Shown: in pieces, positions 2,042-51,447 of the stretch | Numbering within the stretch: position 1 is the first letter of the stretch | Layout: each line of letters starts with the position of its first letter | Virus record (IMG/VR): IMGVR_UViG_3300042154_002918 | Coordinates: 1-51,447 of that record | Direction: 5' to 3' (one strand) | Length of the DNA stretch: 51,447 nucleotides | Source: a virus | Translations under genes and position numbers: made by a program | The notes under the pieces: generated by a model | Databases searched by the model: none | The model's input: the letters and a program-made list of their open reading frames with translations, nothing else | What the model was told of the DNA's origin: nothing

Positions 2042-2061
2042 TTTTAACCTTATAATGACAA

Positions 2062-2726: not shown

Positions 2727-2749
2727 CGACTTTCTTTCTACGACATAAA

Positions 2750-2775: not shown

Positions 2776-2781
2776 ATAACT

Positions 2782-5314: not shown

Positions 5315-5315
5315 T

Positions 5316-7259
5316 ATGATAACAGTAGGATATTCAACAAGAAAACATAACCCCGAATTTATTGAGTACTTAAAAATAAGTTCAGGGGTTAAAAATATTG
5401 AAGTAATTGAAAAGATTAACACCGGAAATAAATCATTATCTCAAACTTATAATGAAATATTATCAGAATCTAAAAATAATATTGTTGTATTATGTCACGA
5501 TGATATTTATTTCGATTCAAAAAAGTGGGGTGAAAAAATTTTAAAACAATTTCAAAAAACCAATTATGGTATTTTAGGAGTTGCTGGAACAACTTTATTA
5601 CCTGAATCCGGTCAATGGTGGGAAGACCCCTCAAAAATGGTTGGGATTGTAAACCATGAAAATGAAGGAAAAAAATGGGAATCAAGATATTCAGAAGATA
5701 TCGGTATTAAAATACAGAAAACAGTAATTGTTGATGGTTTATTTATTGGTATAGATAAAACAAGGATTAAAAAAACTTTTGACGAAAATGTTAAAGGATT
5801 TCATTTTTATGATGTGGATTTTTGTTTTAATAATTTTTTAGAAAAGGTTGAAGTTGGTGTTGTTTTTAATGTTCGAATAACCCATAAATCAATTGGCCAG
5901 ACAAATGAACAATGGAATGAAAATAGAAAATTATTTTCAGAAAATTTTAAAAATAATTTACCTTCAAAGATAACATTAAATTCAAATGACGATTTAAAAC
6001 TTCTGTTCTTTATTGAAAATCACTTAGATTATATTGATGAATTTAAATTATTAACAAAATCTAATAAAGAAATTGTTGTAATTTCAAATAACATTAACAA
6101 AGAAAATGTTAAAATTTTAAATAAATTAAGAATAAAATCGTACAAAGACTCTGAAATACCTGGTTTTAGATTAGGTGACGGAAAATATATGGTTAAAACA
6201 TCTAATGGTACAATAAAAAGTGAATTAGGCCAATACTATAAAATATCTAATATTAATTATGATTTAATATTTTCAGATAGTTTTGAAAGTTTTAATAAAA
6301 TTAAAGTTCTATACCCTTTTGTTCCAAAAATTTTTAATATAAAAGACGAAAATAAAATACCATACCACGATTCAATAATTAATTATTTAACATTTAATGA
6401 TAATTTAAATGATAACCTTGGAAATATTATTGTTGATTCATTAAATGAGTTAAAACCTAAAACACAAAAAGTTAAAATATTAACCGGGTTTTCTGAAAGA
6501 GGTGGTTCTACGACTGCCTTAATAAATTTAACTAATTTATTTAACGAAAATGGTATTGATTGTACGTTTTATGGACCTCATAATTGGCACTTAGATAAAT
6601 GTAAATCAGATTTGATTTCTAATTTAAAATTAGACCCATCAGATAAAGTTATTACTCATGCGGTTAGGCCTGAAACACGATTACCTGTTGATACAGTAAT
6701 ATTGGCGTCTCATGAAAAATGGTGGTTCCCGGTAGGTAAAATCCCTCAACATTGGGATAAAGTAATTTTTTTACACGAAAATCACAGAGAATATCATGAA
6801 GACTATCATGGGGAATATGATATAATACCAAATTTAAAAGAACCTTTGGTATCAAACACTAAAAAAGAAAATGTTGATTTAATTGCAGGTGTGATAGGAA
6901 CTATTGAAGATAGAAAACAAACTCACAAATCAATCGAACGAGCACTTGAAGACGGATGTGAAAAAGTGATTTTATTTGGTAAAATAGGTGATGAAAACTA
7001 TTATAATGATTTAGTTAAAGATTTATTAAATGACCCTCGTGTTGAAATGTCGGGTTATCAAACAGATAAACAATCTATGTATGATTCAATTGGAAGAGTT
7101 TATCATAGTTCAAAAGGTGAGGTGGCATGTTTAGTTAAAGATGAATGTTATTTAACTAACACTAAATTTTACGGAAATGAAGAGACCAACCATGAAGTGT
7201 CTCCATTAACAAACAACGAAATATTAGAAAAATGGAAACAAGTATTAAGAATGAATTAA
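5316..7259 (+). CDS. Two-domain glycosyltransferase (GT-A plus GT-B fusion)
   Basis: A 647-residue protein that reads as two glycosyltransferase modules. The first about 230 residues look like a GT2-type GT-A domain: MITVGYSTRKHNPEF, then VVLCHDDIYFDSKKW (DD acid motif), and VDGLFIGIDKTRI with FHFYDVDFCFNN further on. After a linker, residues from about 388 (VKILTGFSERGGSTTALINL) to the end look like a GT-B/GT4 domain (phosphate-binding Gly/Ser loop, later a Rossmann half with GVIGTIEDRKQTH and ILFGKIGDENYYNDL). It may add two sugars in sequence. It starts 1 base after dut and overlaps the next gene by 28 bases. Confidence 0.78.
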   Translation: MITVGYSTRKHNPEFIEYLKISSGVKNIEVIEKINTGNKSLSQTYNEILSESKNNIVVLCHDDIYFDSKKWGEKILKQFQKTNYGILGVAGTTLLPESGQWWEDPSKMVGIVNHENEGKKWESRYSEDIGIKIQKTVIVDGLFIGIDKTRIKKTFDENVKGFHFYDVDFCFNNFLEKVEVGVVFNVRITHKSIGQTNEQWNENRKLFSENFKNNLPSKITLNSNDDLKLLFFIENHLDYIDEFKLLTKSNKEIVVISNNINKENVKILNKLRIKSYKDSEIPGFRLGDGKYMVKTSNGTIKSELGQYYKISNINYDLIFSDSFESFNKIKVLYPFVPKIFNIKDENKIPYHDSIINYLTFNDNLNDNLGNIIVDSLNELKPKTQKVKILTGFSERGGSTTALINLTNLFNENGIDCTFYGPHNWHLDKCKSDLISNLKLDPSDKVITHAVRPETRLPVDTVILASHEKWWFPVGKIPQHWDKVIFLHENHREYHEDYHGEYDIIPNLKEPLVSNTKKENVDLIAGVIGTIEDRKQTHKSIERALEDGCEKVILFGKIGDENYYNDLVKDLLNDPRVEMSGYQTDKQSMYDSIGRVYHSSKGEVACLVKDECYLTNTKFYGNEETNHEVSPLTNNEILEKWKQVLRMN

Positions 7260-7999
7260 CTGTTGACACATTTATTTTTGTTCATGACCAAGAAATCATA
7301 TTGGATTTTGTATCTAAAAATAAGTTTAACGATTTTAAAAATTTTAAATGGGTATTTTTGGGAGATAAACCTTATGATAAAATACAAAAATTAGATAATT
7401 TAATTATCGTAAGAAATTTAGAACACAATATAGAACAATATCCAAAGTTAACTTCATTTACCGGATGGTATGCATTACATAAAAACAACTTGATAACCAG
7501 TAATTATGTTAATTTTTTTGAATACGACATTAATTATGTCCCTGAATTTGTAGATATCAATAAAGAGATGATTAAAAGAAATTTTGATTTTATTGGATAT
7601 TTCCCTATGATTATTTCAGACATTGTATATATTAAACAAGAACAATATAGCATCGAATTAATTAATTCAGTTAGAGAAAAAACAGGATTTGACATAACTA
7701 AAATGATAAATAATCTTCAAAGTAATAATCCAAGAACTATGTGGAGTTCTTCAAGTAATTCCACTTGGAAAGTATCTGAGTTAAAAAATTACATTGAATG
7801 GTTTGCCGACCATCTGAATAACATTGTTAAAAGTAATTTTTCAGGACATATTCATGAAAGGTCTTTGAGTTTTTATTATTTTATGAAAAATTTAAAAGTT
7901 TTTTTAGCACAAAATTTAATGATTCATGTGCAATTAAATTCTCACGGGACATCACCATTACCACCTGAAAGGGCAAAAGAATTATATAAATTATTGTAA
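7232..7999 (+). CDS. Putative glycosyltransferase-like protein
   Basis: A 255-residue protein whose central part (SFTGWYALHKNNLITSNYVNFFEYDINY) resembles GT-A-like proteins that use an acidic E-x-D segment at the sugar-nucleotide site. The start ATG lies 28 bases inside the preceding gene and is the only ATG near that boundary in this frame. Aromatic and Asn-rich, with no signal peptide or membrane helix. The glycosyltransferase call rests on that motif and on flanking glycosyltransferases, so it is tentative. Only one base separates it from the next gene. Confidence 0.6.
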   Translation: METSIKNELTVDTFIFVHDQEIILDFVSKNKFNDFKNFKWVFLGDKPYDKIQKLDNLIIVRNLEHNIEQYPKLTSFTGWYALHKNNLITSNYVNFFEYDINYVPEFVDINKEMIKRNFDFIGYFPMIISDIVYIKQEQYSIELINSVREKTGFDITKMINNLQSNNPRTMWSSSSNSTWKVSELKNYIEWFADHLNNIVKSNFSGHIHERSLSFYYFMKNLKVFLAQNLMIHVQLNSHGTSPLPPERAKELYKLL

Positions 8000-8000
8000 A

Positions 8001-8663
8001 ATGAAATATGTTAGTTTTAGTTTATGGGGAGATAAACCAATATACAATATTGGAGCAATTAGAAATGCAGAACTCGCAAAAAACATATATCCGGAATGGA
8101 AAGTTGTAATTTATTATGATAATTCGGTCCCGTCTAAAACAATTGATTTATTAAAAAATTTAGATGTTCTGTTAATTGATATGTCAACAGAAACTGTTGC
8201 AGGTCCGTTTTGGAGATTTTTAGCATCTGAAATAAATGATTGCGAATTTGTAGTTTTTAGAGATACTGATTCAAGAATATCTGTAAGAGAAAAAATGGCA
8301 GTTGATGAGTGGATTTTAAGTGGCAAATCATTACATATAATGAGAGACCACCCTTATCATTATATTCCTGCGGGAAATAATGAAATGGGTATTTTAGCGG
8401 GAATGTGGGGGATTAAAGGTAATATAATAAAAATTAGAGAAATGTTAAATAATTTCAACTTATCGAATTCTTATAATTACGGATACGACCAAACATTTTT
8501 AAAACAAATATATTTATATTTTCAAAATGATAAAATCACACACGATGAATTTTTTGAAAAAAAACAATTCCCGATTAAAAGGGAAAATCAAAGATTTATT
8601 GGTGAAAGAATTGACGAACACGACAATCCATTAACCGATGATTATAAATTATTAATAAATTAA
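8001..8663 (+). CDS. Putative GT-A glycosyltransferase with DTD motif
   Basis: A 220-residue protein with a classic GT-A layout: an N-terminal strand and sugar-nucleotide loop (FSLWGDKPIYNIGAIRNAEL), a strand WKVVIYYDNS, and FVVFRDTDSRIS, which supplies the D-x-D motif expected to bind the metal and sugar nucleotide. Later, MRDHPYHYIPAGNNEMGILAG and GYDQTFLKQ match the acceptor-side part of small capsular or LPS transferases. It lies in a chain of like genes spaced 1-3 bases apart. The transferred sugar is not predictable. It is small compared with typical GT-A enzymes but appears complete. Confidence 0.7.
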   Translation: MKYVSFSLWGDKPIYNIGAIRNAELAKNIYPEWKVVIYYDNSVPSKTIDLLKNLDVLLIDMSTETVAGPFWRFLASEINDCEFVVFRDTDSRISVREKMAVDEWILSGKSLHIMRDHPYHYIPAGNNEMGILAGMWGIKGNIIKIREMLNNFNLSNSYNYGYDQTFLKQIYLYFQNDKITHDEFFEKKQFPIKRENQRFIGERIDEHDNPLTDDYKLLIN

Positions 8664-8666
8664 CTA

Positions 8667-9455
8667 ATGAAAATAGATAGAGTCATTTTAATCTCTAATA
8701 CCAACAAAACTTATTACGAGTTTTGGAATCAATTATCTTATACATACAAAGAAAAATTTGGAATAACTCCAACATTAGTCTTTTTTGGAACTGAAGAAGA
8801 ATTTACCAATTTAGGTTTATCAAAAGAATACGGTGATGTGTTTTTTGAAACCGCAATTCAGGGTGTGGGTGTTTGGCAATACACATGGGCACTTTTTTAT
8901 TACACTAAATTTTTTCCAAATGAAACTTGCGTATTAATGGGTATTGACCAAATACCTTTAGGAACTTATTTTTTAAAAGATTTAATTAAAAATATCGATG
9001 AAAATAATTATCTTATGTTAATTGATGATGCCTATGTTACTACCGGTCAAACGGATAAAGATTGGAAATCAGGAGGGTTTAGTCCTTCTGCTTACCACAT
9101 ATCAAAAGGTTCGGTATTTAATGAAATTTATAAATTTGAAGATTCGTTTGAATCTGAAATTTTAAAAATTAAAAACTTAAATGTTAAAACAATGTGGTCA
9201 GATGGATGGGGAACTGACGAAGGATATAGTTCATCAGTATTGTATAATTACGAAAAAAAAGAAAAAATAATTTGCTTAAGTCAATTTAATGAATTAATGT
9301 TAAAAAGGATTGATTGTGGTAGAGACCATGAAATACCTTACAATGTTGATTTATTAAAAAATGACCACTACATTGAATGTCATTCGTGTCGACCATATTC
9401 AAGTCATAAAAATTATTTAGACACAATGTTTAATAATATACCAAAATACATTTAA
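8667..9455 (+). CDS. Putative GT-A-like glycosyltransferase
   Basis: A 262-residue protein beginning KIDRVILISNTNKTYYEFWNQ, with central ETCVLMGIDQIPLGTYF and YLMLIDDAYVTTG, which look like a GT-A strand-plus-acid layout, and a late TMWSDGWGTDEGYSSSVLY segment like the catalytic-base region of GT-A enzymes. No signal peptide or membrane helix. It is spaced 3 bases from the previous gene and 1 base from the next. The family is not recognised by name. The call leans on fold-like pattern and genomic context. Confidence 0.6.
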   Translation: MKIDRVILISNTNKTYYEFWNQLSYTYKEKFGITPTLVFFGTEEEFTNLGLSKEYGDVFFETAIQGVGVWQYTWALFYYTKFFPNETCVLMGIDQIPLGTYFLKDLIKNIDENNYLMLIDDAYVTTGQTDKDWKSGGFSPSAYHISKGSVFNEIYKFEDSFESEILKIKNLNVKTMWSDGWGTDEGYSSSVLYNYEKKEKIICLSQFNELMLKRIDCGRDHEIPYNVDLLKNDHYIECHSCRPYSSHKNYLDTMFNNIPKYI

Positions 9456-10742: not shown

Positions 10743-11501
10743 ATGTCAGTATCTATAAAACATAACGGTAGATTGGGTAACCATTTATTCCAAAATGTGG
10801 CAGCATTTATATTTGCTAAAAAATTTAATCTTTCCTTAAATACAATCTCTGTCGACTCTCAATTTAATTTACCTCAATTAAATGGCTCTGTATATACGAA
10901 CAATAAATTAATTGTTAATGATTCTAATTTTTTGAATTTATTAAACTCAGATACAATTGAACCAAGACATTATATTTTTGATGGTTTTTTTCAAATAAAA
11001 GGTTTTGTATTAAATTATAGAGAGGAAATTAAATCTTTGTTTAATTTATCTTATGATAAAACTGATAAAGATGATGTTTTTGTTATGTACAGAATTGGAG
11101 ACATCGAAGGTCTTAGACAAATGTTACCGATAGAATTTTATCAAAATGCGTTAAACAATTTATCCTCAAAAAAAGGATATATTACATCAGACTCTCCTTC
11201 TCACCCCAATGTAATTAAATTATCAAAAGAATTTAATTTAACAATTTATAACGATACACCATCAGAAACTATTAATTTTGGAAAAAATTTTAATAATTTA
11301 GTATTAAGTGAAGGCAGTTTTAGTTGGTGGATTGGTGCACTAAGTAATTCCAAAAACATATATTATAATCAAAGGGAACGATTTTGGCATGGTGATATTT
11401 TTGTTTTCCCTGAATGGACTCCTCTTCATTATGATTGGACACCTGAATGCGTTGTATCAAATAATAAACTTATATGTGATAAAATAATTAATAATTCTTA
11501 A
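10743..11501 (+). CDS. GT11-like alpha-1,2-fucosyltransferase family protein
   Basis: The three landmarks of GT11 are visible: the N-terminal GRLGNHLFQ (9-17, like GGLGNQMFQ), MYRIGD (115-120, in place of H-x-R-R-x-D; the first Arg is kept and the second is Ile), and SEGSFSWWIGAL (189-200), the hallmark S-x-F-S-W-W motif. GT11 enzymes transfer L-fucose (or a related 6-deoxy-L-sugar) from its GDP form. The GDP-sugar cassette at 13135-16161 on the same strand could supply that donor. At 252 residues it is slightly shorter than bacterial GT11 enzymes. An 88-base spacer without recognisable features follows. Confidence 0.82.
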   Translation: MSVSIKHNGRLGNHLFQNVAAFIFAKKFNLSLNTISVDSQFNLPQLNGSVYTNNKLIVNDSNFLNLLNSDTIEPRHYIFDGFFQIKGFVLNYREEIKSLFNLSYDKTDKDDVFVMYRIGDIEGLRQMLPIEFYQNALNNLSSKKGYITSDSPSHPNVIKLSKEFNLTIYNDTPSETINFGKNFNNLVLSEGSFSWWIGALSNSKNIYYNQRERFWHGDIFVFPEWTPLHYDWTPECVVSNNKLICDKIINNS

Positions 11502-11589
11502 TATTATATGAAACTACTAAATTTAAGATAAATTCTTTACATATTTCCTCAAAAATATTAAATTTAAATCTAAACTAAATTAATTAAAA

Positions 11590-12354
11590 ATGAAAAACTA
11601 CGACATAGTAATTGTTTCCCACGAAAAAGATTTTAACAACATTAAATTTATTGTTGAATATTCTCAAAAAAATTTAAAGTTTGATTCGATTCATTTAATT
11701 TTAAGTGAACGAAAAGAATTTACCGATTTAGAATTGGTAAAAACTTTAACAGATAAACCAGTGTTCTTACATATGGAAAGTGATGTTTTAAAAATAGATA
11801 AAACAAGAATTAATTATAGACCAAATTGGATTTATCAAATGATGCTTAAAATATTTCAAAACGTTACTAATAATGACGATTTTTTAATTATAGAATCAGA
11901 TTGTCTAATCCTTAAAGAAATTAATTTTTTTGAAGATGACAAAACTTGTTTATATTTGTGTCGAGACCAATATCATGAACAATATTTTAACTTCAACAAT
12001 TTATTAGGTTTTGGTAGAGAATATAACCATTCTTTTATTTCTGAATTTATGATGTATAACAAACAAATTGTCAAAGACATGTTATCAAAATCAAATTGTA
12101 ATGATGTTAATGATTTTTTAGAAATAGTTTATAACAACACCAATAAGAATTGTTATCCCGCAGATTATGAATTATATGGTAATTTTTGTTTTAAATATCA
12201 TAGAGATAAAATAGATTTAAAACATTTAAACTACAATTTTTTTGGTAGAGATGTTGGAGAGAGACCTTTTTGGGAAGACAATGAAATTATAAATTTAATT
12301 AACACTAATTCAGATAAAGAAGTTATTAGTTTCCATACTTGGGGAGCAAATTAA
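11590..12354 (+). CDS. Putative GT-A glycosyltransferase
   Basis: A 254-residue protein opening YDIVIVSHEKDFNNIKFIVEY and carrying DDFLIIESDCLILKEINFF, a GT-A strand with an E-S-D acid motif. PNWIYQMMLKIF upstream and NCYPADYELYGNF downstream resemble the acceptor and base regions of DUF6492-type transferases. The C-terminal FHTWG is a typical edge motif. No signal peptide or membrane helix. It begins after the only sizeable gap inside the glycan run and is followed 5 bases later by the SDR gene. The family assignment is tentative. Confidence 0.62.
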   Translation: MKNYDIVIVSHEKDFNNIKFIVEYSQKNLKFDSIHLILSERKEFTDLELVKTLTDKPVFLHMESDVLKIDKTRINYRPNWIYQMMLKIFQNVTNNDDFLIIESDCLILKEINFFEDDKTCLYLCRDQYHEQYFNFNNLLGFGREYNHSFISEFMMYNKQIVKDMLSKSNCNDVNDFLEIVYNNTNKNCYPADYELYGNFCFKYHRDKIDLKHLNYNFFGRDVGERPFWEDNEIINLINTNSDKEVISFHTWGAN

Positions 12355-12359
12355 TTATT

Positions 12360-13145
12360 ATGTCAGATAAAACATCTTTAGTTATTGGTAATACCTCTCA
12401 ATTAAGTTATTACTTCCCTAATAATTTTGAAAAAATATCGTCTAGAAATATAGATTTTACAAAACTTTGTTCTAAAAAATATGATAAAGTTTTTTTATTA
12501 TTTGCCGAACAACGAACTTTTCTAAATGAATCAGACGATTTTTTTATAAAGACTAATTTTGATTACACTTTGGAGGTCATTAATAAATTTAAAGACATTT
12601 CAAATAAAATTATCATCTATTCAACATCTGAATTATGGAATAAATATGAAGGTTGTATTACGTTAGACGATAAGTATAATTATAATTATTCACCATATAT
12701 TAAATCAAAAGAAATTCTTTGTAACTATATTAATAACAATAGAGACATTTACAACAATGTCATAATAATTTATCCATTTAATTTTAATTCAATTTATAGA
12801 AAAGAAGGTTTTCTTTTTGGTAAAATATTTGACTCAATATTGAATAATAAGAAAATTTCAATAGGGGACATAAATTTTAATAGAGACATAACTCATCCAA
12901 AAAATATTGTGGATATTTCATTAGAAACTGATAAAGATTGCATTATTGGTTCCGGAGAATTAATTAATGTTCAAAAATTTATTGAAGACATTTTTACAAA
13001 ATTAAATAAAAAAATTATAGATTACATAGAATATGATGAATCTAACAACCTAAAAATAAAAAGAGGTGGTTATTATAGTTGTGAGAAAACAATCGACTAT
13101 AATGAACTAATTAACTTAACAATTAAAGACATATATGAGTATTAA
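12360..13145 (+). CDS. Divergent extended SDR (sugar epimerase/reductase-like)
   Basis: A 261-residue Rossmann protein. The expected G-x-x-G-x-x-G near the N-terminus is degenerate (VIGNTSQLSYYF), but the catalytic Y-x-x-x-K is present as YIKSK, preceded by IIYSTSELW (the Ser/Thr position). NFNRDITHPKNIVDI matches the late cofactor/substrate region of NAD-dependent sugar epimerases and reductases. I chose the ATG at 12360; a TTG 21 bases earlier would extend into the previous gene. It overlaps the DegT-fold gene by 11 bases, so it may be the ketoreductase for the GDP-sugar made by the next three genes. Confidence 0.7.
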   Translation: MSDKTSLVIGNTSQLSYYFPNNFEKISSRNIDFTKLCSKKYDKVFLLFAEQRTFLNESDDFFIKTNFDYTLEVINKFKDISNKIIIYSTSELWNKYEGCITLDDKYNYNYSPYIKSKEILCNYINNNRDIYNNVIIIYPFNFNSIYRKEGFLFGKIFDSILNNKKISIGDINFNRDITHPKNIVDISLETDKDCIIGSGELINVQKFIEDIFTKLNKKIIDYIEYDESNNLKIKRGGYYSCEKTIDYNELINLTIKDIYEY

Positions 13146-14286
13146 ACTAGTAAAAGATACTATTGATTTTGACGATATTAATAAATTAATAGAATGGTTA
13201 AAAACTAATCCGAGATTAACTAAAGGAGAATTAACCACAACGTTTGAGAACTTGTGGTCTAAATGGTTAGGATGTAAGTATTCAATATTTGTAAATTCAG
13301 GCTCATCGGCTAATTTAGCGGCAATATATTCATTAATTTTATCAGGTAAATTAAAAAATAATAAAATTATTGTACCAGCAGTTTCTTGGGTGACAACCGT
13401 AACACCGGCAATACAATTAGGGTTAACCCCTATTATGTGTGATTGTGATATGGATAATTTAGGTTTGGACATTAACCATTTAAAAACATTAATTAAAGAA
13501 GAAAACCCATCTGCAATCATTTTGGTTCACGTATTAGGATTTCCAAACCATATGACAGAAATTATCGAACTATGTAAAGAAAATGATATTTTATTAATTG
13601 AGGACACTTGTGAATCAATTGGTTCAAAATATGATGAAAAACATTTAGGTACTTTTGGTGATTTATCAACATTCTCATTTTATTTTGGACATCATATGTC
13701 AACAATTGAAGGTGGTATGATATCAACAGACAATGAAGACTTATACCATATATTACTATCCATTAGGTCACACGGGTGGGACAGGGACTTACCAATATCA
13801 AAACAAAAAGAATTACGTGAAAAATATAAGGTTGACGATTTTAAATCGTTATACACCTTCTATTACCCCGGATTTAATTTAAGGGCAACTGACTTACAAG
13901 CATTTATTGGGATTCAACAGATGGATAAATTAAACCATATTGTTGAATCTAGAAATAAAAACTATTTGAAATATAAAGAAGGAATTAAAAATAATTTTTG
14001 GAACATATCACCAACAAGTAATTCTTATGTTTCAAATTTTTCCTACCCAATAATTACTAAGAATCTTGACAAATTAATATTTGAATTACAAAACAACAAT
14101 ATAGAGTGTCGACCATTAATTTGTGGCTCAATAAATGAACACCCATTTTGGTATGAAAGATATGGTAAACAAGAATTACCAAATTCAAAATTAGTTCACG
14201 AATATGGATTATACTTACCAAATAACCATCAAATGACAGAAGAAGAAATAAATAAAGTAATTAAAATTGTTAACGAGAATATATGA
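13135..14286 (+). CDS. DegT-fold PLP enzyme with His at Lys position (ColD-like 3-dehydratase)
   Basis: A full-length 383-residue fold-type I DegT/DnrJ family protein: NSGSSANLAAIYSL (PLP phosphate loop), PAVSWVTTVTPAIQLGLTPI, IEDTCESIGSKY, and STFSFYFGHHMSTIEGGMIS. In aminotransferases of this family the last segment reads S-F-H-x-x-K-N-I-x-x-x-E-G-G with Lys holding PLP; here H186 (followed by H187) is at that position, as in GDP-4-keto-6-deoxymannose 3-dehydratase ColD and the E1-type deoxysugar dehydrases. RSHGWDRDL also fits. No iron-sulfur cysteine set is seen, so ColD-like is preferred over E1-like. It lies directly before the fcl/colC-like and gmd genes. Confidence 0.85.
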   Translation: MSIKLVKDTIDFDDINKLIEWLKTNPRLTKGELTTTFENLWSKWLGCKYSIFVNSGSSANLAAIYSLILSGKLKNNKIIVPAVSWVTTVTPAIQLGLTPIMCDCDMDNLGLDINHLKTLIKEENPSAIILVHVLGFPNHMTEIIELCKENDILLIEDTCESIGSKYDEKHLGTFGDLSTFSFYFGHHMSTIEGGMISTDNEDLYHILLSIRSHGWDRDLPISKQKELREKYKVDDFKSLYTFYYPGFNLRATDLQAFIGIQQMDKLNHIVESRNKNYLKYKEGIKNNFWNISPTSNSYVSNFSYPIITKNLDKLIFELQNNNIECRPLICGSINEHPFWYERYGKQELPNSKLVHEYGLYLPNNHQMTEEEINKVIKIVNENI

Positions 14287-15185
14287 AAAAATTATTAGTG
14301 ACCGGAGGAAACGGTTTAGTTGGCTCATCAATAAATGCTGACATTAAAATTGGGAAACAATATGACTTAAAACTCACTGATGAAACAAATAAAATGTTTG
14401 AGTACCATAAACCAACACATGTTATTCATTGTGCAGGTAAAGTTGGAGGTGTAGGAGGAAATATGAACTATAAAGGAGAATATTTTTATGATAACATAAT
14501 GATAAACACCAATGTTATTGAATCTGCAAGAAGAAATGGTGTCGAGAAATTAGTATCTTTCTTATCAACGTGTGTGTTTCCGGATAATATAGAATACCCT
14601 TTAACTGAATCTAAAATTCATTTAGGTGAGCCACATAATTCAAATTACCCTTATGCTTATGCTAAGAGAATGGCCGATATTCAAATTCGGGCGTATAGAG
14701 AACAATATGGTTTAAATTATGTTTCGGTTATTCCAACAAACATATACGGTCCAAATGATAATTTTTCATTATCTCAAGGTCACGTAATGCCGATGTTAAT
14801 ACATAAACTTTATTTGGCACAAAAAAACAATACCGATTTTACAGTATGGGGTTCAGGTAAACCATTAAGAGAATTTATATTTTCAAAAGATGTTGCAAAA
14901 TTATCAGAATGGGCAATTGACAACTATAATGAATCTGAACCTATAATATTTAGTACATCTGAAGAGATTAGCATAATGGATTTAGTTGATTTATTAGTAA
15001 AAGAATTTAACTTTAAGGGTAATGTGATTTTTGATTCATCAAAACCTGACGGACAATTTAGAAAACCATCAGATAATTCAAAATTAAAATCATATTTACC
15101 AGATTTTAAATTTACACCCATTGAGGATGGGATAAAAGAAACCGTTAATTGGTTTATAACAAATTATGAAAATGCAAGAAAATAA
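14283..15185 (+). CDS. fcl: GDP-L-fucose synthase / ColC-like epimerase-reductase
   Basis: A 300-residue extended SDR. NAD(P) loop GGNGLVG (8-14); S95-T96-C97 in FLSTCVFP; Y124-x-x-x-K128 in PYAYAKRM; H167 in QGHVMPML; and PTNIYGPNDNFS, all matching GDP-4-keto-6-deoxymannose 3,5-epimerase-4-reductase (GMER/WcaG). The Ser, Cys, His, Tyr and Lys used by that enzyme are all kept, so it should be active. With Gmd it would give GDP-L-fucose. If ColD acts first, the homologous ColC reaction would give GDP-L-colitose; sequence alone cannot separate the two. It overlaps the DegT gene by 4 bases and gmd by 20. Confidence 0.9.
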   Translation: MKKLLVTGGNGLVGSSINADIKIGKQYDLKLTDETNKMFEYHKPTHVIHCAGKVGGVGGNMNYKGEYFYDNIMINTNVIESARRNGVEKLVSFLSTCVFPDNIEYPLTESKIHLGEPHNSNYPYAYAKRMADIQIRAYREQYGLNYVSVIPTNIYGPNDNFSLSQGHVMPMLIHKLYLAQKNNTDFTVWGSGKPLREFIFSKDVAKLSEWAIDNYNESEPIIFSTSEEISIMDLVDLLVKEFNFKGNVIFDSSKPDGQFRKPSDNSKLKSYLPDFKFTPIEDGIKETVNWFITNYENARK

Positions 15186-16161
15186 AATAGCTCTTATTAC
15201 AGGAATAAACGGTCAAGATGGTTCTTATCTTGCCGAATTTCTTTTAGAAAAAGGATATGAAGTACATGGTACTTTAAAACGTAATTCGGTTGCGGAAAAC
15301 CAAACATCACGTCTTGATTCTATTTATTCTAAATTAAAATTACATTACGCAGATTTAACTGATTTATCATCATTAATTAGTGTGATTCAAAAATGTAATC
15401 CAACTGAAATTTATAATCTTGCAGCACAATCACATGTTAGAATTTCATTTGACCAACCAATCTATACTGCGAATGCAACCGGTGTTGGTACTTTAAACAT
15501 GTTAGAGGCTGTTAAATTAATCAACCCTAAAATTAAAATCTATCAAGCATCTTCATCTGAAATGTTTGGAAATTCAATAGATTCTGACGGATTTCAAAGA
15601 GAAACAACTTCCATGAATCCAGTATCCCCTTATGGTTGTTCAAAAGTTTTTAGTTATCACATTTGTAGAAATTATCGTAATTCTTATAATATGTTTATTT
15701 CTAACGGAATTTTATTTAATCATGAATCCCCAAGAAGAGGAACAAATTTTGTAACTAATAAAGTATGTAAAGAGGCGGTTAAAATAAAATTAGGATTAAG
15801 TAATGAATTAAAATTAGGTAATTTAGATGCAACAAGAGATTGGGGACACGCTAAAGATTATGTTAAAGCAATGTGGGAAATACTTCAATTAGATGAACCT
15901 AATGACTTTGTTTGTTCAACAGGAATTTCTCACTCAGTTAGGGATTTATGTGATTATGTTTTCACTAAATTGGATTTAAATTATGAAGACTACGTTAAGC
16001 TTGATGAAAAATTTTTAAGACCTGAAGAATTAAATAACTTAAAAGGAGATTCCAACAAATTAAAAGAATTGACAGGGTGGTCACCAACATACACATTTGA
16101 AACAATGTTAGACGAAATGATTGAACATTGGTTAGGTCACTATAAATTAAATAAAAATTAA
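15166..16161 (+). CDS. gmd: GDP-mannose 4,6-dehydratase
   Basis: A 331-residue extended SDR with the family signatures: TGINGQDGSYLAEFLLEKGY (cofactor loop), AAQSHVRISFDQP, SSSEMFGN, Y-x-x-x-K as YGCSK, NHESPRRGTNFVTNKV and LDATRDWGHAKDYV. It converts GDP-D-mannose to GDP-4-keto-6-deoxy-D-mannose with internal NADP recycling, the entry step to GDP-fucose, colitose, perosamine and rhamnose. The gene starts 20 bases inside the preceding one; ATG codons at 15166 and 15172 are both possible. It supplies the substrate for both neighbouring sugar enzymes and is followed 2 bases later by phoH. Confidence 0.95.
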   Translation: MKMQENKIALITGINGQDGSYLAEFLLEKGYEVHGTLKRNSVAENQTSRLDSIYSKLKLHYADLTDLSSLISVIQKCNPTEIYNLAAQSHVRISFDQPIYTANATGVGTLNMLEAVKLINPKIKIYQASSSEMFGNSIDSDGFQRETTSMNPVSPYGCSKVFSYHICRNYRNSYNMFISNGILFNHESPRRGTNFVTNKVCKEAVKIKLGLSNELKLGNLDATRDWGHAKDYVKAMWEILQLDEPNDFVCSTGISHSVRDLCDYVFTKLDLNYEDYVKLDEKFLRPEELNNLKGDSNKLKELTGWSPTYTFETMLDEMIEHWLGHYKLNKN

Positions 16162-32811: not shown

Positions 32812-34644
32812 TTATCTCAATTCTCTTAAGTCGAATGTTCTAACACCATCAACTGTGATACGTCCGTAGAATCTGTTGTTAACCATTTTCTTAGCGTAAC
32901 GTGTCATAATACCTTTGATAGGTGTAAAGTTGAATGGGTTGTACATTGTTGGAGTTAATTGTAACGGTACGTATGGTGCGTAGATGTATCCTGTGTCTAA
33001 CAATGATGTTCCTTTGTGTCCCATTAACACTTGGTTTGGTGGGAAGTAAGGGTCACGGTAAACTTGGTAACGTCCTGCAAGAGTACCAACTCTTTCAATA
33101 CCCATGTTGTATTGGTCTTGCTCAGGAGAAGCGTTTGATACGTGGAAGTATTCTAAATCGTCAAAGATAGCTGAGATTTCAGAAGAAACTACAATCCAGT
33201 TCGCTCCACCTCTTAATGTAGATTTGTGGATTTGAGCAGAGATTTGGTTAATCGCTGTGATAAGCGTTTGGTTCCAGTCTTTTTGAGTATAAGGAACTGC
33301 AGAAGACCCTAAACGTTTCCAACCATTGTAATCCCAACGTAAGTTCCATGCTGCACCTTTACGTAAATCTCTTAAGATTTCACGGTCGATTTCAGCCGCA
33401 ACTTGCTCAGATAATAAAGCTGTTAATTCAGCTTCAGCATCGATGTTGTGGAATGCAGCAACGTCTTGAGCCATTTCAGGAGACCATTGTGCTCTTAATT
33501 TTCTTTCTGTTACAGAAACAGTTACCGACATTAAGTCAAAAGAAACCTCACCAATTCTATCTTCAAACTCTAAGTTTTTGTAGATTCTATAACTAGCTAC
33601 AAATGAAGTGTTTGATGTAGTATTAGATGAGAATGTTGAACCTGTATAACCGTCCATTGAACCACCACAAGTAATACATACTGGTACTTGTAAATCAACT
33701 TCTAAGTAAATTTTACCTTCAGCATCACATAAGTCATCATATTGACCACCACCTGTTTTACTACCAGGGAATGTTAATGAAGTGTTATTGTTTCCGTATT
33801 CAACAATACCTTTACCATATCTTTGAGTAACAACTCTAAATAAGTAAGGGTTATTTGTATTTGCTGAAGTTGTTGTGTTTGTATTAATACCTTTAATTGT
33901 CAAATCAGCTAAGAAAGATTCATTGTCCATTGGTTGACCATCAGGACCGATTAATTTACCTGCTCCCGCAGATGCAAAACCTGACATAACAATTAATACT
34001 TTTCTATAATCAGATAATCCATATCCTGAAACAACTAATTGGTCTCCCTCCCACGCAACAGTCTGAACTTTAGTACCATTAGTACTTAAATGAGTAACCG
34101 CTGAGAATTGTCCTTTTGAATAGTCATATAAACCTGGTGGGTCTAAAGCTGGTTCATTACCTTCATAGAATCTATCGTAAAGGTCTTTAGTGTTGTTGTA
34201 GTCGTAACCACTTCCTGGTCCATCAGGTCCATCAACTGCGTCGTCATATCCAGGTGCCCCATAAGGTTTACGGTGAATACCATTAGTAGTTGTTGAATTT
34301 TCAGTGTACGCTTGAATGTTAGGTACGAAGTAGAATAATTTACCAATTGGTAAGTTCATTGCTTGTACAGAAACGATGTCGTTAGATAATAATTTAGAGA
34401 ATACTCTTCTAACAATTGGGAAAACCACTGTTTCAAATGCACCTGTATCAGATGTAGATGATGCTTCGTTAATTAAATACGATGCTTGGTTTTCATATAA
34501 TTGTGCAACGTTTTCTCTCATGTGACCTTTAAGACCCTCTAAGAATCCTAATTTGTCCCATTTGTTGATTGTGTCTTCTTTGATAACTTTAAGGTGTTTC
34601 AACCCGATGTTACCAACTAATCCTGATTCTAATAATGCTCCCAT
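32812..34644 (-). CDS. Major capsid protein, T4 gp23-like
   Basis: A 610-residue protein. Residues 60-130 (TGAFETVVFPIVRRVFSKLL, then VSVQAMNLPIGKLFYFVP) copy the T4 gp23 core region (I-x-M-x-M-V-R-R-x-x-P-x-L-x-x-x-D-I-x-x-V-Q-P-M-x-x-P-x-G). FYGRITVDGVRTFDL at the C-terminus is also typical. YLINE then A61 at residues 56-61 gives an I-N-E site at nearly the same distance from the N-terminus as the gp23 maturation cleavage. The long middle (140-400) is Gly/Asn/Thr-rich, probably an inserted domain. It is the last gene of the head operon, followed by a strong terminator. Confidence 0.92.
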   Translation of the reverse strand: MGALLESGLVGNIGLKHLKVIKEDTINKWDKLGFLEGLKGHMRENVAQLYENQASYLINEASSTSDTGAFETVVFPIVRRVFSKLLSNDIVSVQAMNLPIGKLFYFVPNIQAYTENSTTTNGIHRKPYGAPGYDDAVDGPDGPGSGYDYNNTKDLYDRFYEGNEPALDPPGLYDYSKGQFSAVTHLSTNGTKVQTVAWEGDQLVVSGYGLSDYRKVLIVMSGFASAGAGKLIGPDGQPMDNESFLADLTIKGINTNTTTSANTNNPYLFRVVTQRYGKGIVEYGNNNTSLTFPGSKTGGGQYDDLCDAEGKIYLEVDLQVPVCITCGGSMDGYTGSTFSSNTTSNTSFVASYRIYKNLEFEDRIGEVSFDLMSVTVSVTERKLRAQWSPEMAQDVAAFHNIDAEAELTALLSEQVAAEIDREILRDLRKGAAWNLRWDYNGWKRLGSSAVPYTQKDWNQTLITAINQISAQIHKSTLRGGANWIVVSSEISAIFDDLEYFHVSNASPEQDQYNMGIERVGTLAGRYQVYRDPYFPPNQVLMGHKGTSLLDTGYIYAPYVPLQLTPTMYNPFNFTPIKGIMTRYAKKMVNNRFYGRITVDGVRTFDLRELR

Positions 34645-46216: not shown

Positions 46217-47062
46217 TTAATTATTTAATCCGTTAAATCCACCTAACGTAATTGCGTTTAACTGAGCGTATGGTACTCCATATGCGTCGGTATAGATAGG
46301 GTGTGGTGCAATTCCATTTGCCGGTCCTCCCTCAGTAATTGACCCACCACTAAAGTTACCTAATATTTCAACAGTATACGCATATTGATTATCAACACTA
46401 ATTCCTGACAACGGCCATGGACTTGGTGATGGTGTTTGAGTTTGTGTTGGTGTTGGCGTGTTTGTCGGCGTATTTGTTGGTGTACCCGTATTTGTTGGTG
46501 TATTTGTAGGTGTAGGTGTTTGAGTACCTGTATTAGTCGGTGTGTTTGTAGGTGTAGGTGTTTGAGTACTTGTGTTAGTCGGAGTATTGGTTGGCGTACT
46601 TGTATTAGTTGGTGTATTTGTTGGAGTAGGAGTTTGAGTATTTGTTGCCGTTACAGATGGAGTTGGTGTATTTGTTGGAGTATTTGTTGGTGTACCTGTC
46701 TGAGTCTGAGTTTGAGTTTGAGTTGGCGTTTGAGTTGGTGTTGGAGTTGAGGTATTTGTTGCAGTTACCGATGGAGTTGGGGTATTTGTTGGAGTTGAAG
46801 TTTGAGTCGGTGTCGGTGTTGGAGTTGGATTAGCATCTAAACACGGTATACATTCACTATAATTTGTTGACATGGTTGCAACATAATCTGAACCCGTTCC
46901 TGGTTCCGCAGTATCAACTACTTCATAACATCCCTGAGTTGTTACACCTGTGAATGTTAAATAATAATTTCCTCCCACTGCTGGAAGTGATGAACCGTTA
47001 AATTCTACGGTTAGTGATGAACCACCCGCGCAAGGTGCTATAAGATATGTAACGAATGCCAT
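46217..47062 (-). CDS. Thr/Pro repeat protein with two flanking beta domains
   Basis: A 281-residue protein. Residues 1-78 are a beta-rich Cys-containing domain ([43 protein letters not shown]). Residues 79-215 are uninterrupted TPT/TNTPT/TQT repeats; the last about 65 residues are a second beta-rich domain ([20 protein letters not shown]). The repeat tract could be an extended mucin-like stalk and would offer many O-glycosylation sites, in a genome full of glycosyltransferases. It resembles surface or fibre proteins of environmental phages. The repeat DNA is a candidate for length variation. Confidence 0.75.
46418..46828 (-). repeat. Thr/Pro-coding minisatellite
   Basis: About 411 bases of imperfect short tandem units encoding TPTNTPT, TPTQT and TPSVTAT-type repeats (residues 79-215 of the gene at 46217). 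On the plus strand it reads as GTTGGTGT / GTATTTGTTGG / GTTTGAGT-type units. Repeat number could change by slippage or recombination. Confidence 0.85.
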
Positions 47063-47859: not shown

Positions 47860-48102
47860 CTACAGTTTCTTATACTTGTAGGCTTTTGATATATCAGTTA
47901 CAAAATATTTTCCTTGAGACTCTGCTGCTCTGAATTTTGTGTAGGTTTGGTGTGGAACTTCATCATACTCATACTTGAATCCATTGTTAAATTCAACAAT
48001 CATTTTTTTTGTTTCAGTATCGTATTCTGTTCGTTTAATGTTTGACGATTTTATTTCATTAATAATCTTCGTCCCCTTGATTTCCTCTCTCGTAATCCCC
48101 AT
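47860..48102 (-). CDS. KTSC domain protein
   Basis: An 80-residue protein whose residues about 19-80 match the KTSC domain (S-S-N-I-K-R-T-E-Y-D ... L/M-x-V-x-F-N-N-G-x-K/Y-Y-x-Y-x-x-V-P ... F-x-x-A-x-S-x-G-K-Y-F). KTSC domains are small beta-rich modules linked to lysyl-tRNA synthetase in some bacteria and found alone in phages; their activity is unclear. The only available ATG lies 44 bases inside the upstream gene, giving an unusually long overlap. Confidence 0.8.
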   Translation of the reverse strand: MGITREEIKGTKIINEIKSSNIKRTEYDTETKKMIVEFNNGFKYEYDEVPHQTYTKFRAAESQGKYFVTDISKAYKYKKL

Positions 48103-48391
48103 CGCTTAGTGGTGTTAGTTCGTTTATGTTTTTTAAAATAGGTTTCAAATATTCATTAAAATCCTCTTTTTCTACCTCAAAACCTAAGTCCTTCATCTGT
48201 TGAAGTAAATCTCTTATTTCACCACCAAATTTTTCATGAAGTGTCATTAATTGTGCCGAGTAATATGGTGGCCTTTCTAAATCCTTTTCACTCCACCCTT
48301 CTGATTGGAAATATTGTCTTATCTTAAGATATATTTCAATTATGCGTTGTAACCCAACACTACTAACTAAAAAATTTTCAAATGGTCTCAT
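48059..48391 (-). CDS. Unassigned small phage protein (110 aa)
   Basis: A 110-residue soluble helical protein (GLQRIIEIYLKIRQYFQSEG, LMTLHEKFGGEIRDLLQQMK) with an acidic C-terminus. No motif recognised. It starts the minus-strand head/assembly transcript, 3 bases after a TATTTATA box, and overlaps the KTSC gene by 44 bases. It is divergent from the plus-strand hydroxylase gene. Confidence 0.68.
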   Translation of the reverse strand: MRPFENFLVSSVGLQRIIEIYLKIRQYFQSEGWSEKDLERPPYYSAQLMTLHEKFGGEIRDLLQQMKDLGFEVEKEDFNEYLKPILKNINELTPLSDGDYERGNQGDEDY

Positions 48392-48394
48392 ACT

Positions 48395-48402
48395 TATAAA
48401 TA
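48395..48402. promoter_or_regulatory. TATAAATA / TATTTATA between divergent genes
   Basis: Reads TATAAATA on plus (identical to the T4 late -10 consensus) and TATTTATA on minus, where it lies 3 bases before the ATG at 48391. The plus-strand ATG at 48408 is 5 bases away on the other side, so it could serve either gene. Confidence 0.4.
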
Positions 48403-48407
48403 TAACT

Positions 48408-48977
48408 ATGGACGTAACTGAAACATTTATTAAGCACGGAGATTACAATGTCGAGAATATTTTAAAAATAATTAAAGACAATAATTTGGATTGGGATGAA
48501 TTCACCGATAGACAAAAAAGGTATAATTCTGAACACGTCCACACAAAAACAATTCCAATAATTTTTGATAAGTCATTTAATTTTAACCATTTAAAAATAA
48601 TCCCAACTACTCATTACCCTTTATTTAAAGAAGAGATTACCAAAATTGAGGATATTATTAAACTCAATACCGGAGAAAATGGCAGAATTATGAGGGCTTT
48701 ATTAGTTAAGTTAACTGCCGGAGAATCCATCAGACCTCATGTTGATATTGTAGGATTTAGTTTGGTTATTTGCCGAAGAATCCACATACCAATTCAAACA
48801 AATGAAGATTGTTTTTTTACGGTAGGTGATGATAAAAGAAATCTAAAATTAGGTGAGCTATGGGAAATTAACAACGACAAACAAAAACACTCTGTTGATA
48901 ATTTTGGGGAAACCGATAGAATACATTTAATTGTTGATTGGATTGAAGAATCTTTATTTGAATCATATGGTATCTAA
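48408..48977 (+). CDS. Asp/Asn hydroxylase-like 2OG-Fe(II) oxygenase
   Basis: A 189-residue protein with the iron site of the aspartyl/asparaginyl beta-hydroxylase family: H111-x-D113 in SIRPHVDIVGFS, distal H161 in NDKQKHSVDNFG, and R171 for 2-oxoglutarate; RRIHIPIQTN and GELWEINND are also family-typical. I chose the ATG at 48408; an upstream in-frame ATG lies inside the divergent gene. It could hydroxylate an amino acid side chain or other small molecule. It overlaps the sulfotransferase gene by 11 bases, so the two are translated together. Confidence 0.85.
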   Translation: MDVTETFIKHGDYNVENILKIIKDNNLDWDEFTDRQKRYNSEHVHTKTIPIIFDKSFNFNHLKIIPTTHYPLFKEEITKIEDIIKLNTGENGRIMRALLVKLTAGESIRPHVDIVGFSLVICRRIHIPIQTNEDCFFTVGDDKRNLKLGELWEINNDKQKHSVDNFGETDRIHLIVDWIEESLFESYGI

Positions 48978-49644
48978 AACACAAAAAATAATATTTTTAT
49001 ATCCTCCAAAAACAGCATCTAATTCTTTACGTGTTAGTTTAAATAATAATGGGTTTATTGAAGACACACAAAATGACACATATCTTACACCAAAACTTCA
49101 CTTAAAATTAGATGAAATTATGGTTGCCTATGATATCGAGTCTCTTGACGGATATAAAGTTATACAAGTAACTAGAAATCCTTATGATAGAATGATATCC
49201 GGATATTACCATCAAATTAGGATTTTTAATCGACCTGACTTTGAATCAAGTGCTTCGATTAGTGGATACACATTTGACCAATTTTTACTTCATTTAAACT
49301 CAACAAAAAATTCTGAAAATTTTATTGATGATTTTTATTGTGATTCATCTCATCACATCAACTATGTTATTGAAAATAAAAAATCATGGGGAGGAATTCG
49401 ATTTTACTACACTCAAAGTAGTTGGAAAAACGTAGATTGTGATTTTTATCATTTTAAGTTAGAGGATTTAAGTAAAGACATCAAACCGTTAAGTGATTTA
49501 ATCAACTTACCTTTGTCCCCCTTATATCAAATTAACCCTAACCCTATAAAGGTTAATTATGAAACCCACAAAACACCTCAAAATAAATTAATCATTCAAA
49601 ATTTATTTTCAGAAGATTTCGATACTTTTGGATATGAAAAATAA
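48967..49644 (+). CDS. Sulfotransferase family protein
   Basis: A 225-residue protein with both PAPS-binding motifs of sulfotransferases: the 5'-phosphosulfate loop FLYPPKTASNSLR (10-22) and the 3'-phosphate region VTRNPYDRMISGYYH (68-82, R-x-P-x-x-R-x-x-S-x-Y). The start at 48967 is preferred over an in-frame ATG 36 bases upstream. It would transfer sulfate to a hydroxyl on a sugar or polymer, extending the glycan theme. No PAPS-making genes are present, so it depends on host PAPS. A strong terminator overlaps the stop. Confidence 0.85.
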   Translation: MVSKTQKIIFLYPPKTASNSLRVSLNNNGFIEDTQNDTYLTPKLHLKLDEIMVAYDIESLDGYKVIQVTRNPYDRMISGYYHQIRIFNRPDFESSASISGYTFDQFLLHLNSTKNSENFIDDFYCDSSHHINYVIENKKSWGGIRFYYTQSSWKNVDCDFYHFKLEDLSKDIKPLSDLINLPLSPLYQINPNPIKVNYETHKTPQNKLIIQNLFSEDFDTFGYEK

Positions 49645-49668
49645 AACCCCACCTAATGGGCGGGGTTT
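49644..49668. terminator. Bidirectional GC-rich terminator
   Basis: AAACCCC, inner loop, GGGGTTT followed by T-runs, between the convergent genes ending at 49644 (+) and 49673 (-). Confidence 0.85.
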
Positions 49669-49672
49669 CTTT

Positions 49673-50050
49673 TTACTTCTTTAATTTCTTTAATTCATCA
49701 CGAATTTCAATTGACCTTTCAAAATTATGGTCCTTAATTGTTTGTTTCAACTCTTCTTCAAGTTTCGTAATGGTTTCTTGATTAAGTTCCATTTTTTTAA
49801 TTTGGTCTCTAATTTCAACCGCTTTTTCAAAGTCTTCATTTTCGATTGCCAACTCAAGTTGTCGTTTTAAACCATTTGCACCTTTATGTGTCTTTGGTTC
49901 ATTACTTCTATAATAAGTAGTAACTTTCATAGTACCATCTTCAGATACTTTAGTTTGTGATTTCCATTCCCCTAAACGAGAATCGAACTGAGCGAACATA
50001 TCATCAAACGCTCTTAAAATGTCATTAAAGTTTTTTTCGTTTCCAAACAT
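49673..50050 (-). CDS. UVR-motif protein (McsA/UvrB-type helices)
   Basis: A 125-residue protein with two UVR motifs: LELAIENEDFEKAVEIRDQI (63-82) and LKQTIKDHNFERSIEIRDEL (101-120), the helix-loop-helix pattern L-x-x-x-[IM]-x-x-x-x-[DN]-F-E-x-[AS]-x-x-[IL]-R-D. UVR motifs occur in UvrB/UvrC and in McsA-type adaptors and ClpC proteins. The N-terminal third is helical and lacks the McsA zinc-finger cysteines. The divergent neighbour is a ClpC-like ATPase which itself has a UVR-type helix, so an adaptor role is a reasonable hypothesis. Confidence 0.82.
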   Translation of the reverse strand: MFGNEKNFNDILRAFDDMFAQFDSRLGEWKSQTKVSEDGTMKVTTYYRSNEPKTHKGANGLKRQLELAIENEDFEKAVEIRDQIKKMELNQETITKLEEELKQTIKDHNFERSIEIRDELKKLKK

Positions 50051-50222: not shown

Positions 50223-51447
50223 ATGAACGACTTAATGGACGAAAACGACAAATCAGGTAACAGAGCTCAAAAACAAGCTATGGACACAAATACTCCTGTA
50301 TTAGACAATTTCAGTAGAGATTTAAACAAACTAGCGGAGGCAGGTAAATTAGACCCTGTAATTGGTAGAGATGCCGAGATTTTGAGAATCGCACAAATCC
50401 TTTCTCGTAGAAAAAAGAATAACCCTATTATCATAGGTGAGCCCGGGTGTGGTAAAACTGCACTTGTTGAGGGTCTTGCCATGAAAATCGTAAGTGGAGA
50501 ATGCCCAAGAAACTTAGTGGACAAAAGAATCGTGAACCTTGATTTAACTTCAGTTGTTGCAGGTACCAAGTATCGTGGACAATTCGAAGAAAGAATGAAA
50601 GTGATTATTGAAGAACTAAGTGCAAATCCAAACATCATCGTGTTTATTGATGAGATTCATACATTAGTTGGTTCAGGTAATTCATCAGGTTCAATGGATG
50701 GTTCAAACATCTTCAAACCAGCACTTGCTCGTGGTGAGGTTCAATGTATTGGAGCAACAACTCTTGATGAGTTCCGTAAGAACATTGAAAAAGACGGAGC
50801 ATTGGAAAGAAGATTCCAAAAAGTAGTTGTGGAACCATCAACAGTTGAGGAAACAATCGAAATCCTTAAAAATGTTCGTGATAAATACGAATCATACCAC
50901 AAGGTATTGTACAGTGACGAAGTTGTTGAAACTTGTGTTAAATTGGCGGACCGTTATATTACCGACCGTGAGTTTCCGGATAAAGCGTTTGATATCTTAG
51001 ATGAGGTTGGGGCTCGTATGCAAACCGAGATTAAAGTTCCTGAAGTTATTGAGGAATTGAAAAAGAAAGCTGCGGAGATTAAAATTGAGAAAATGGAAGT
51101 AGTTAAAAAACAAAACTACGAACAAGCGGCCCAACTTAGAGATAAGGAGAAAAAATTGTTAATCAAACTTGAGGCGGAAAAAGAGAAGTTTTCAAAACAA
51201 ATGGATTTGGAAAAACAAACTATTGTTCTTGAAACTGTTTATCAAGTTGTATCAAGTATGACTAAGATTCCTGTGAATAAAATGGACGCAGATGACTCTA
51301 AAGCATTGATGAATTTAGATAAATCAATCATGGGTAAAGTAATTGGTCAAGACGCGGCTGTTGTTAAGATTGCTAAATCAATCAAGAGAAACCGTTTAGG
51401 TATCAAAGACCCTAACAGACCTATTGGTTCATTTATCTTCTTAGGTT
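50223..51447 (+). CDS. ClpC/ClpA-like AAA+ unfoldase, 3'-truncated by window edge
   Basis: 408 residues visible, continuing past the right edge. The first AAA+ module is complete: LDPVIGRDAEILRIAQILSR, Walker A GEPGCGKT (72-79), pore loop GTKYRGQFEER, Walker B IIVFIDEIHT, and the sensor region ALERRFQKV. A UVR-type helix (MEVVKKQNYEQAAQLRDKEK) sits between the two AAA+ modules as in ClpC. The second module begins at KVIGQDAAVVKIAKSIKRNR. There is no Clp N-domain before the AAA+ start, unlike ClpA/B/C. It probably unfolds proteins; a ClpP-interacting loop lies beyond the window if present. Confidence 0.9.
   Translation, partial: MNDLMDENDKSGNRAQKQAMDTNTPVLDNFSRDLNKLAEAGKLDPVIGRDAEILRIAQILSRRKKNNPIIIGEPGCGKTALVEGLAMKIVSGECPRNLVDKRIVNLDLTSVVAGTKYRGQFEERMKVIIEELSANPNIIVFIDEIHTLVGSGNSSGSMDGSNIFKPALARGEVQCIGATTLDEFRKNIEKDGALERRFQKVVVEPSTVEETIEILKNVRDKYESYHKVLYSDEVVETCVKLADRYITDREFPDKAFDILDEVGARMQTEIKVPEVIEELKKKAAEIKIEKMEVVKKQNYEQAAQLRDKEKKLLIKLEAEKEKFSKQMDLEKQTIVLETVYQVVSSMTKIPVNKMDADDSKALMNLDKSIMGKVIGQDAAVVKIAKSIKRNRLGIKDPNRPIGSFIFLG

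Follow-up and report, generated by a model that had tools for sequence, protein, structure and literature searches.

Among the closest described systems are the tailoring enzymes of lasso peptides. According to excerpts of one review, the 2-oxoglutarate (2OG) enzyme CanE hydroxylates the lasso precursor of canucin, and sulfotransferase genes occur in some lasso clusters of Firmicutes (PMC8498205). An excerpted gene-presence table gives adjacent cluster numbers to a lasso B2 protein, a nucleotidyltransferase, a sulfotransferase, an aspartyl beta-hydroxylase, a sulfotransferase-domain protein, a PqqD protein and an asparagine-synthase-related protein (PMC10040529), entries which presumably correspond to neighbouring genes. 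As regards viruses, an excerpt of a third article describes the role of phage sulfotransferases as still uncertain (PMC10580990), which fits the remark in an earlier sequence-only reading of this locus that sulfation by phages is rarely described. Annotated sulfotransferases are known in the cyanophages P-SSM7, S-T4, Sf-CH8 and ACG-2014f, with two genes in the last. None of these five genes, in four genomes, has an annotated 2OG oxygenase directly adjacent; tail or glycan genes lie around them, and one of the two in ACG-2014f is located within a sugar-nucleotide/glycosyltransferase operon. The ACG-2014f genome (NC_047714) also carries a glycosyltransferase gene adjoining a 2OG oxygenase gene, between collagen-repeat and tail-fibre genes (L287, 3869-15416). 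In the literature searched, mostly outside subscription journals, none of four phrases naming a phage- or virus-encoded sulfotransferase occurs.

At the locus considered here, enzymes of two known families form a viral couple that recurs and that was not found described in the literature searched. The window, meaning the whole stretch of DNA that was analysed, is a virus record of 51,447 bp, probably a fragment, with a ClpA gene truncated at the record end. Matches of its portal, major head and head-protease genes to phage families place it among the T4-like phages; the nearest named portals are those of Microcystis phage Mel-JY01 (40.5%) and Flavobacterium phage immuto (37.1%). On the plus strand, a gene for a 189-aa 2OG-Fe(II) dioxygenase of the Asp/Asn/Pro-hydroxylase type (H; 48408..48977, longest-start ORF 48342-48977) is followed by a gene for a 225-aa PAPS-type sulfotransferase (S; 48967..49644, longest-start ORF 48931-49644). 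The two share 11 bp on the plus strand (48967..48977), and a hairpin terminator readable both ways follows (49643..49669). The earlier description of a hydroxylase-like and a PAPS-type sulfotransferase gene overlapping by 11 bases and ending at a terminator agrees with these coordinates and with the Pfam scores given below.

The two enzyme families

H matches PF05118 with an E-value of 2e-14 and 54.2 bits, against a curated cut-off of 22.6. The 19 aligned sequences all share residues H111, D113, H161 and R171, and we take the first three to be the iron triad HxD...H and R171 to be the 2OG-binding residue. The AlphaFold model (pLDDT 91.1) adopts a double-stranded beta-helix fold, and its top Foldseek match is an L-proline cis-4-hydroxylase (E 2.8e-9), the enzyme which is likewise the best match by sequence. 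Comparison with the L-proline cis-4-hydroxylase structure 4p7w using VIA-align gave a Z of 13.7 and an rmsd of 2.8 over 164 residues, within a near-tie (Z 13 to 15) that includes a nucleoside-antibiotic hydroxylase at 14.7 and P3H, cis-P4H and AspH, all at about 13.7. The predicted fold leaves the substrate undecided, with protein- and nucleoside-acting enzymes of the family found at equal Z. H shares with the PF05118 dioxygenases (4p7w; AspH, 5apa; the nucleoside-antibiotic hydroxylase, 7v4m) the PF05118 core, the HxD...H...R residues and the double-stranded beta-helix, but shows only 12-19% identity to them over aligned residues and, unlike them, is followed by a sulfotransferase gene. Compared with the mammalian-type AspH, it is shorter (189 aa) and has no TPR region, its model aligning to the oxygenase domain only. 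Among named phages, six records gave distant partial matches to H; in bacteria, 56 pattern matches in genome contigs contained no true relative.

S matches PF03567 over residues 1-223 (E 3.2e-8, 34.4 bits, cut-off 22) and PHROG 3347, named 'Galactose-3-O-sulfotransferase', at 5.4e-11. P13, K15, S20, H45 and S78 are invariant in 13 of 13 sequences and R70 is nearly so; K15 is presumably the lysine of the PAPS-binding loop, with R70 and S78 forming the Arg/Ser 3'-phosphate site. A sulfotransferase fold is also predicted by the AlphaFold model (pLDDT 89.0), the nearest structures being heparan-sulfate sulfotransferases (Z 9.6 to 8.7 over 167-187 residues, at an rmsd of 3.6-4.0), with 3bd9 at a Z of 9.6 and an rmsd of 3.8 over 179 residues; SULTs follow at Z 8.0-8.5. 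The modelled fold gives no acceptor, whether glycan or peptide. Predicted sulfotransferases of cyanophages and giant viruses are among its Foldseek matches. When compared to the carbohydrate sulfotransferases of PF03567 and to PHROG 3347, S has the same PAPS-fold, P-x-K...S loop and R...S site; it differs from the PF03567 enzymes in its length of 225 aa, in lacking a close relative of solved structure by sequence (best 0.28) and in being coupled to 2OG oxygenases. Searches among named phages gave no relative of the window S at E 0.01, and likewise none for the S of record G011 at 1, for those of L334 and L330 at 0.1 and for that of L285 at 0.001. Family, predicted fold and conserved catalytic residues together bear out both of the enzyme assignments first made from the sequence.

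A cargo site beside ClpA

To the left of the pair, on the minus strand, lie the genes for P110, a protein of unknown kind that forms the left border of the site (48059..48391), for a KTSC-domain protein (PF13619; 47860..48102), which serves as the left anchor, and for NT. The start codons of P110 and H are 16 bp apart on opposite strands. To the right there is a single minus-strand gene, encoding a UVR-motif protein (49673..50050) that forms the right border, and then the plus-strand gene for a ClpA/B-type ATPase (50223..51446), truncated by the window end, which provided the right anchor and the source of the tree. In relatives, the gene preceding ClpA alternates between one for a UVR-motif protein, as in the window, and one for an HSP20 chaperone (L062, 6560-6958).

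The interval from KTSC/P110 to UVR-or-HSP20/ClpA varies among T4-like relatives. Clustering at 97% identity reduced 220 loci with both flanks to 105 distinct sites, with H and S together at 17, H only at 7, S only at 1 and neither at 80; in the 96-cluster subset reached through the flanking genes, the corresponding counts were 9, 7, 0 and 80. Record G011 (L152) was scored as having neither gene at the site, though its H sits just past ClpA and its S 14 kb off. In three close relatives (L123, L194 and L196), which lack the pair cleanly, the P110 start is followed by a short spacer and the terminator, at a position where the window has about 1.24 kb extra. H and S form a cassette that T4-like phages gain or lose at this single cargo site, which carries other genes too, singly or combined. 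An S profile applied to eight H-only records, all of them fragments, detected an S-like stretch in one.

A ClpA tree of 104 clusters required 14 changes for H and 12 for S. Eight independent pairs drawn from it gave 6.0 concordant, 1.0 opposed and 1.0 with no difference, with a median p of 0.125 that is not significant alone. The association of H and S at the site is confounded by kinship. Applied to the 105 clusters, a Fisher test gave p 3.5e-13; it was set aside, since its rows are related and some had been fetched with H or S itself.

The sequence-only reading had taken the overlap and the terminator to mark a two-gene unit. Overlaps are ordinary in this phage: of 28 successive ORF pairs on the plus strand between positions 27 and 23470, 12 overlap (longest-start reading). 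The hairpin, which appears on the minus strand only in the terminator listing and was folded separately for both strands, has a predicted energy of -14.0 kcal/mol on the plus strand (z -3.1) and -18.2 kcal/mol on the minus strand (z -4.8), and it is retained by L123, L194 and L196, which have no pair; it is a property of the cargo site and not of H and S. As proof of a two-gene unit, overlap and terminator are therefore weak. What goes beyond chance is the conservation of the pair, and not the overlap itself. S follows H in 21 of the 22 loci found with H, the remaining one being truncated by a contig end, and the junction in the 21 uncut loci is an 11-bp overlap in 15, a 17-bp overlap in five and a 6-bp gap in one. 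Rough estimates of dN/dS suggest that both genes are in general under purifying selection, with values of 0.05-0.19 for H (8 of 10 pairs with finite dS) and 0.12-0.24 for S (10 pairs), many dS values being above 1. Distances of H and S are correlated across 20 pairs (Mantel r 0.62, reached in 0 of 2000 permutations), a result that plain co-inheritance predicts as well.

Recurrence of the pair beyond the site

The last scan with S returned 34 loci: in 30, H is no more than 60 bp away on the strand of S, three abut another 2OG-type oxygenase and one does neither. Two of the three (L304, L308) have S adjoining an oxygenase-like gene, OX2, on the opposite strand; the OX2 call has no supporting Pfam match and was made by eye from HxD...H...R. 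In the third (L303, from record G011), S lies 2 bp behind a PF13640-like oxygenase gene, under the cut-off, which is itself behind a PF13759 oxygenase gene. In this record, two different 2OG-oxygenase-type genes and then S are found at 1295-3245 of L283, with a PF05118 gene 14 kb away behind ClpA. The only locus of the 34 where no oxygenase is adjacent to S (L336) has a PF13640 gene about 2.5 kb upstream.

The pair has also been found in other backgrounds. In two contigs of another phage type (L334, L335), H precedes S and overlaps it by 4 bp; the genes around them were read as queE-, folE- and polymerase-like, the L334 polymerase matching phage PolB. L330 shows the S-H order, with a PF05118 gene (1.3e-14) after S in an array of oxygenase-type genes; this array includes three PF13640 genes above the cut-off (4.9e-11, 2.7e-7 and 3.2e-9) and several other oxygenase-like ORFs under Pfam cut-offs. 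Overlapping oxygenase-type genes, together with PF03567, PF05118 and a radical-SAM gene, extend over 1698-8830 of this locus. Two further L330 ORFs (2247-2936 and 7798-8355) were read by eye as sulfotransferase-like and have no Pfam match, the first also giving no meaningful PDB match. A more distant S occurs in two near-identical loci (L285, L286), where it is followed by an oxygenase-like ORF recognised by motif only (6471-7028 in L285, called by eye from HxD...H...R, with no supporting Pfam match and no PDB match).

Among 15 long records, PF03567 and PF05118 were both present in eight and both absent from seven, a co-occurrence that includes G011 with the two genes 14 kb apart. APS kinase (PF01583) was found in two of the 15, both without S, and in none of the eight with both families, while PF01507 was found in none of the 15; a host source of PAPS is therefore assumed. 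The two APS-kinase-type genes (G007, 33083-33448; G009, 261156-261464) belong to relatives of 309 and 326 kb, in which no PF03567 was found.

One bacterial copy was detected: a scan of genome contigs with the S profile returned 25 pattern matches and a single relative, on a Flavobacterium metagenome-assembled contig (L337). Here S (6001-6666) precedes H (6656-7183) with an 11-bp overlap, and this H matches the phage H profile at 2.1e-37. S starts 11 bp past a PF00733 gene (7.3e-24) that encodes a 597-aa asparagine-synthetase-like protein, and the same stretch holds matches to PF13471 (3.5e-10) and PF05402 (6.6e-11); all three matches are above the cut-off, and together these genes can be read as the lasso-peptide core set B1, B2 and C. 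An ORF of 40 aa (1538-1660), read by eye, could be a candidate precursor; an HPr-kinase-like call for a neighbouring gene has no real support (match 0.59). The contig also encodes an APS kinase (1.1e-49) and a second, SULT-type sulfotransferase (1.3e-13); having this kinase alongside both sulfotransferases, the stretch at 1-8447 would possibly yield a sulfated lasso peptide. By analogy, this context points to a polypeptide rather than a sugar as acceptor. The likeness to lasso tailoring enzymes such as CanE would lie in the 2OG hydroxylation of a ribosomal peptide precursor, L337 being a lasso-type locus with the same pair; the differences are that the couple of hydroxylase and sulfotransferase is not described in the excerpted text of that work (PMC8498205) and that the cyclase is absent from the window record. 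As a PF00733 search found no such gene in the window record, the B1/B2/C context found in L337 does not carry over directly to the phage.

The genetic coupling of H and S is well supported. Of the two-gene unit first proposed, joint working draws support from the recurrence of the pair, in either gene order, within gene contexts that are unrelated, and none from the overlap or the terminator.

Candidate acceptors and competing explanations

The reading preferred here, held tentatively and at a little under even confidence, is that H and S form a mobile two-enzyme module for polypeptide tailoring, in which H hydroxylates and S sulfates the same polypeptide, most simply on the newly made hydroxyl. 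We infer the enzyme activities, the order of the steps, the shared substrate and its identity, its polypeptide nature in the phage and the purpose of the modification as follows. H, as an Fe(II)/2-oxoglutarate dioxygenase, would hydroxylate the side chain of an amino acid within a polypeptide; S would then move sulfate from PAPS, supplied by the host, to an oxygen of the same polypeptide, in the simplest case the hydroxyl made by H. The target in the phage may be a phage-made or host surface-exposed polypeptide, which would gain extra negative charge, and virion proteins, including a Pro/Thr-repeat protein (46217-47062), would be candidates. The polypeptide nature of the target is suggested by the bacterial locus. 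In collagen, a lysyl hydroxylase and a glycosyltransferase follow a similar logic, the oxygenase making a hydroxyl that the transferase decorates; the proposed scheme has the same order, a hydroxyl being made and then decorated by a neighbouring transferase, but the transferase is here a sulfotransferase. The glycosyltransferase and 2OG oxygenase genes that adjoin in ACG-2014f would be a phage analogue of the collagen scheme.

A two-step hydroxylation and sulfation had been suggested from the sequence; it is supported in part, more strongly through the recurrent coupling than from the sequence alone, and is tentatively the best reading. Against it are the sites where H occurs alone (7 of 105) and the scarcity of S-like stretches in the H-only records, as well as the carbohydrate enzymes nearest to S in fold and the cyanophage sulfotransferases that have no adjacent annotated 2OG oxygenase. 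The confounding by kinship, the 14 kb between H and S in G011 and the lack of a PF00733 gene in the window record also count against it.

The product of the gene at 46217-47062 has extended repeats of Thr, Pro and Asn (TPTNTPTPT...); many relatives keep such a gene close to the cargo site, and the protein may represent a mucin-like target. A Pro/Thr-repeat gene lies close to the site in 23 of the 25 clusters that have H or S and in 52 of the 77 that have neither, with similar repeat content; two clusters with too little sequence and one without the NT gene are left out of this count. The evidence for this protein as the target of H and S is weak and confounded by kinship, and it is kept as a lead only.

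The main rival is a separate glycan acceptor for S. Under this explanation, which we judge unlikely, S would sulfate a phage-encoded or host glycan and H would hydroxylate a protein, for example a virion fibre, the two genes travelling together only because each adds a decoration to the particle or to the host surface. The window phage probably makes its own glycan, judging from a sugar-nucleotide island (10743-16161) with GT11-like and DUF6492 genes, a GDP-mannose 4,6-dehydratase (6e-119), an epimerase, a DegT aminotransferase and glycosyltransferases. These genes favour the rival, as do the ACG-2014f sulfotransferase within a sugar-nucleotide/glycosyltransferase operon, the heparan-sulfate sulfotransferases at the top of the fold comparison and the name of PHROG 3347. 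The linkage of H and S is, however, tight and repeated, in both orders and on unrelated contigs, and the bacterial copy lies behind a lasso-type cyclase gene and not in a glycan cluster. A sugar had also been offered at the outset as the acceptor of the sulfate, which the sugar-nucleotide genes of the phage keep possible, but the lasso-type context of L337 points to a polypeptide.

It is also conceivable, if improbable, that the cargo site gathers unrelated genes and that H and S are merely co-inherited as neutral passengers. The other cargo found at the site, alone or combined, is consistent with such hitch-hiking, as are the non-significant test on independent pairs and the sites with H alone. 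The pair nevertheless recurs beyond the site and the phage group, with other overlaps and in reversed order, and most S genes that lack a neighbouring H adjoin some other gene of oxygenase type. Most improbable of all is a small-molecule chemistry in which the substrate of H is an amino acid, free or bound to a carrier, hydroxylated in the manner of cis-proline-4-hydroxylase, and S sulfates the product to give a metabolite, signal or inhibitor, as suggested by the proline hydroxylase that leads both the sequence and Foldseek matches of H and by a weak match, far under the cut-off, to TIGR04531 (putative nonproteinogenic amino-acid hydroxylase), since protein- and nucleoside-acting family members fit at equal Z and the bacterial copy lies in a locus with core genes of a ribosomal peptide pathway.

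Returning to the module for polypeptide tailoring, a broader proposal, which we regard as rather doubtful, is that phages have acquired such a hydroxylation and sulfation module, similar to those that accompany peptide-tailoring genes, and modify a host peptide or their own particle with residues that are both hydroxylated and sulfated. S would stay linked to an oxygenase while swapping partners (PF05118, OX2, PF13640-like), and couples of oxygenase and sulfotransferase would make up a general and undescribed class of viral post-translational modification. The finding of an oxygenase-linked S in a bacterial lasso-type cluster as well as across several phage backgrounds provides a testable chemistry, in which a hydroxyl would be made and then sulfated, with the acceptor narrowed, and the bacterial locus lets the substrate be guessed from its gene cluster. 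If the proposed chemistry is true, sulfation would join the modifications that viruses carry out, and a peptide-tailoring enzyme pair would be on offer.
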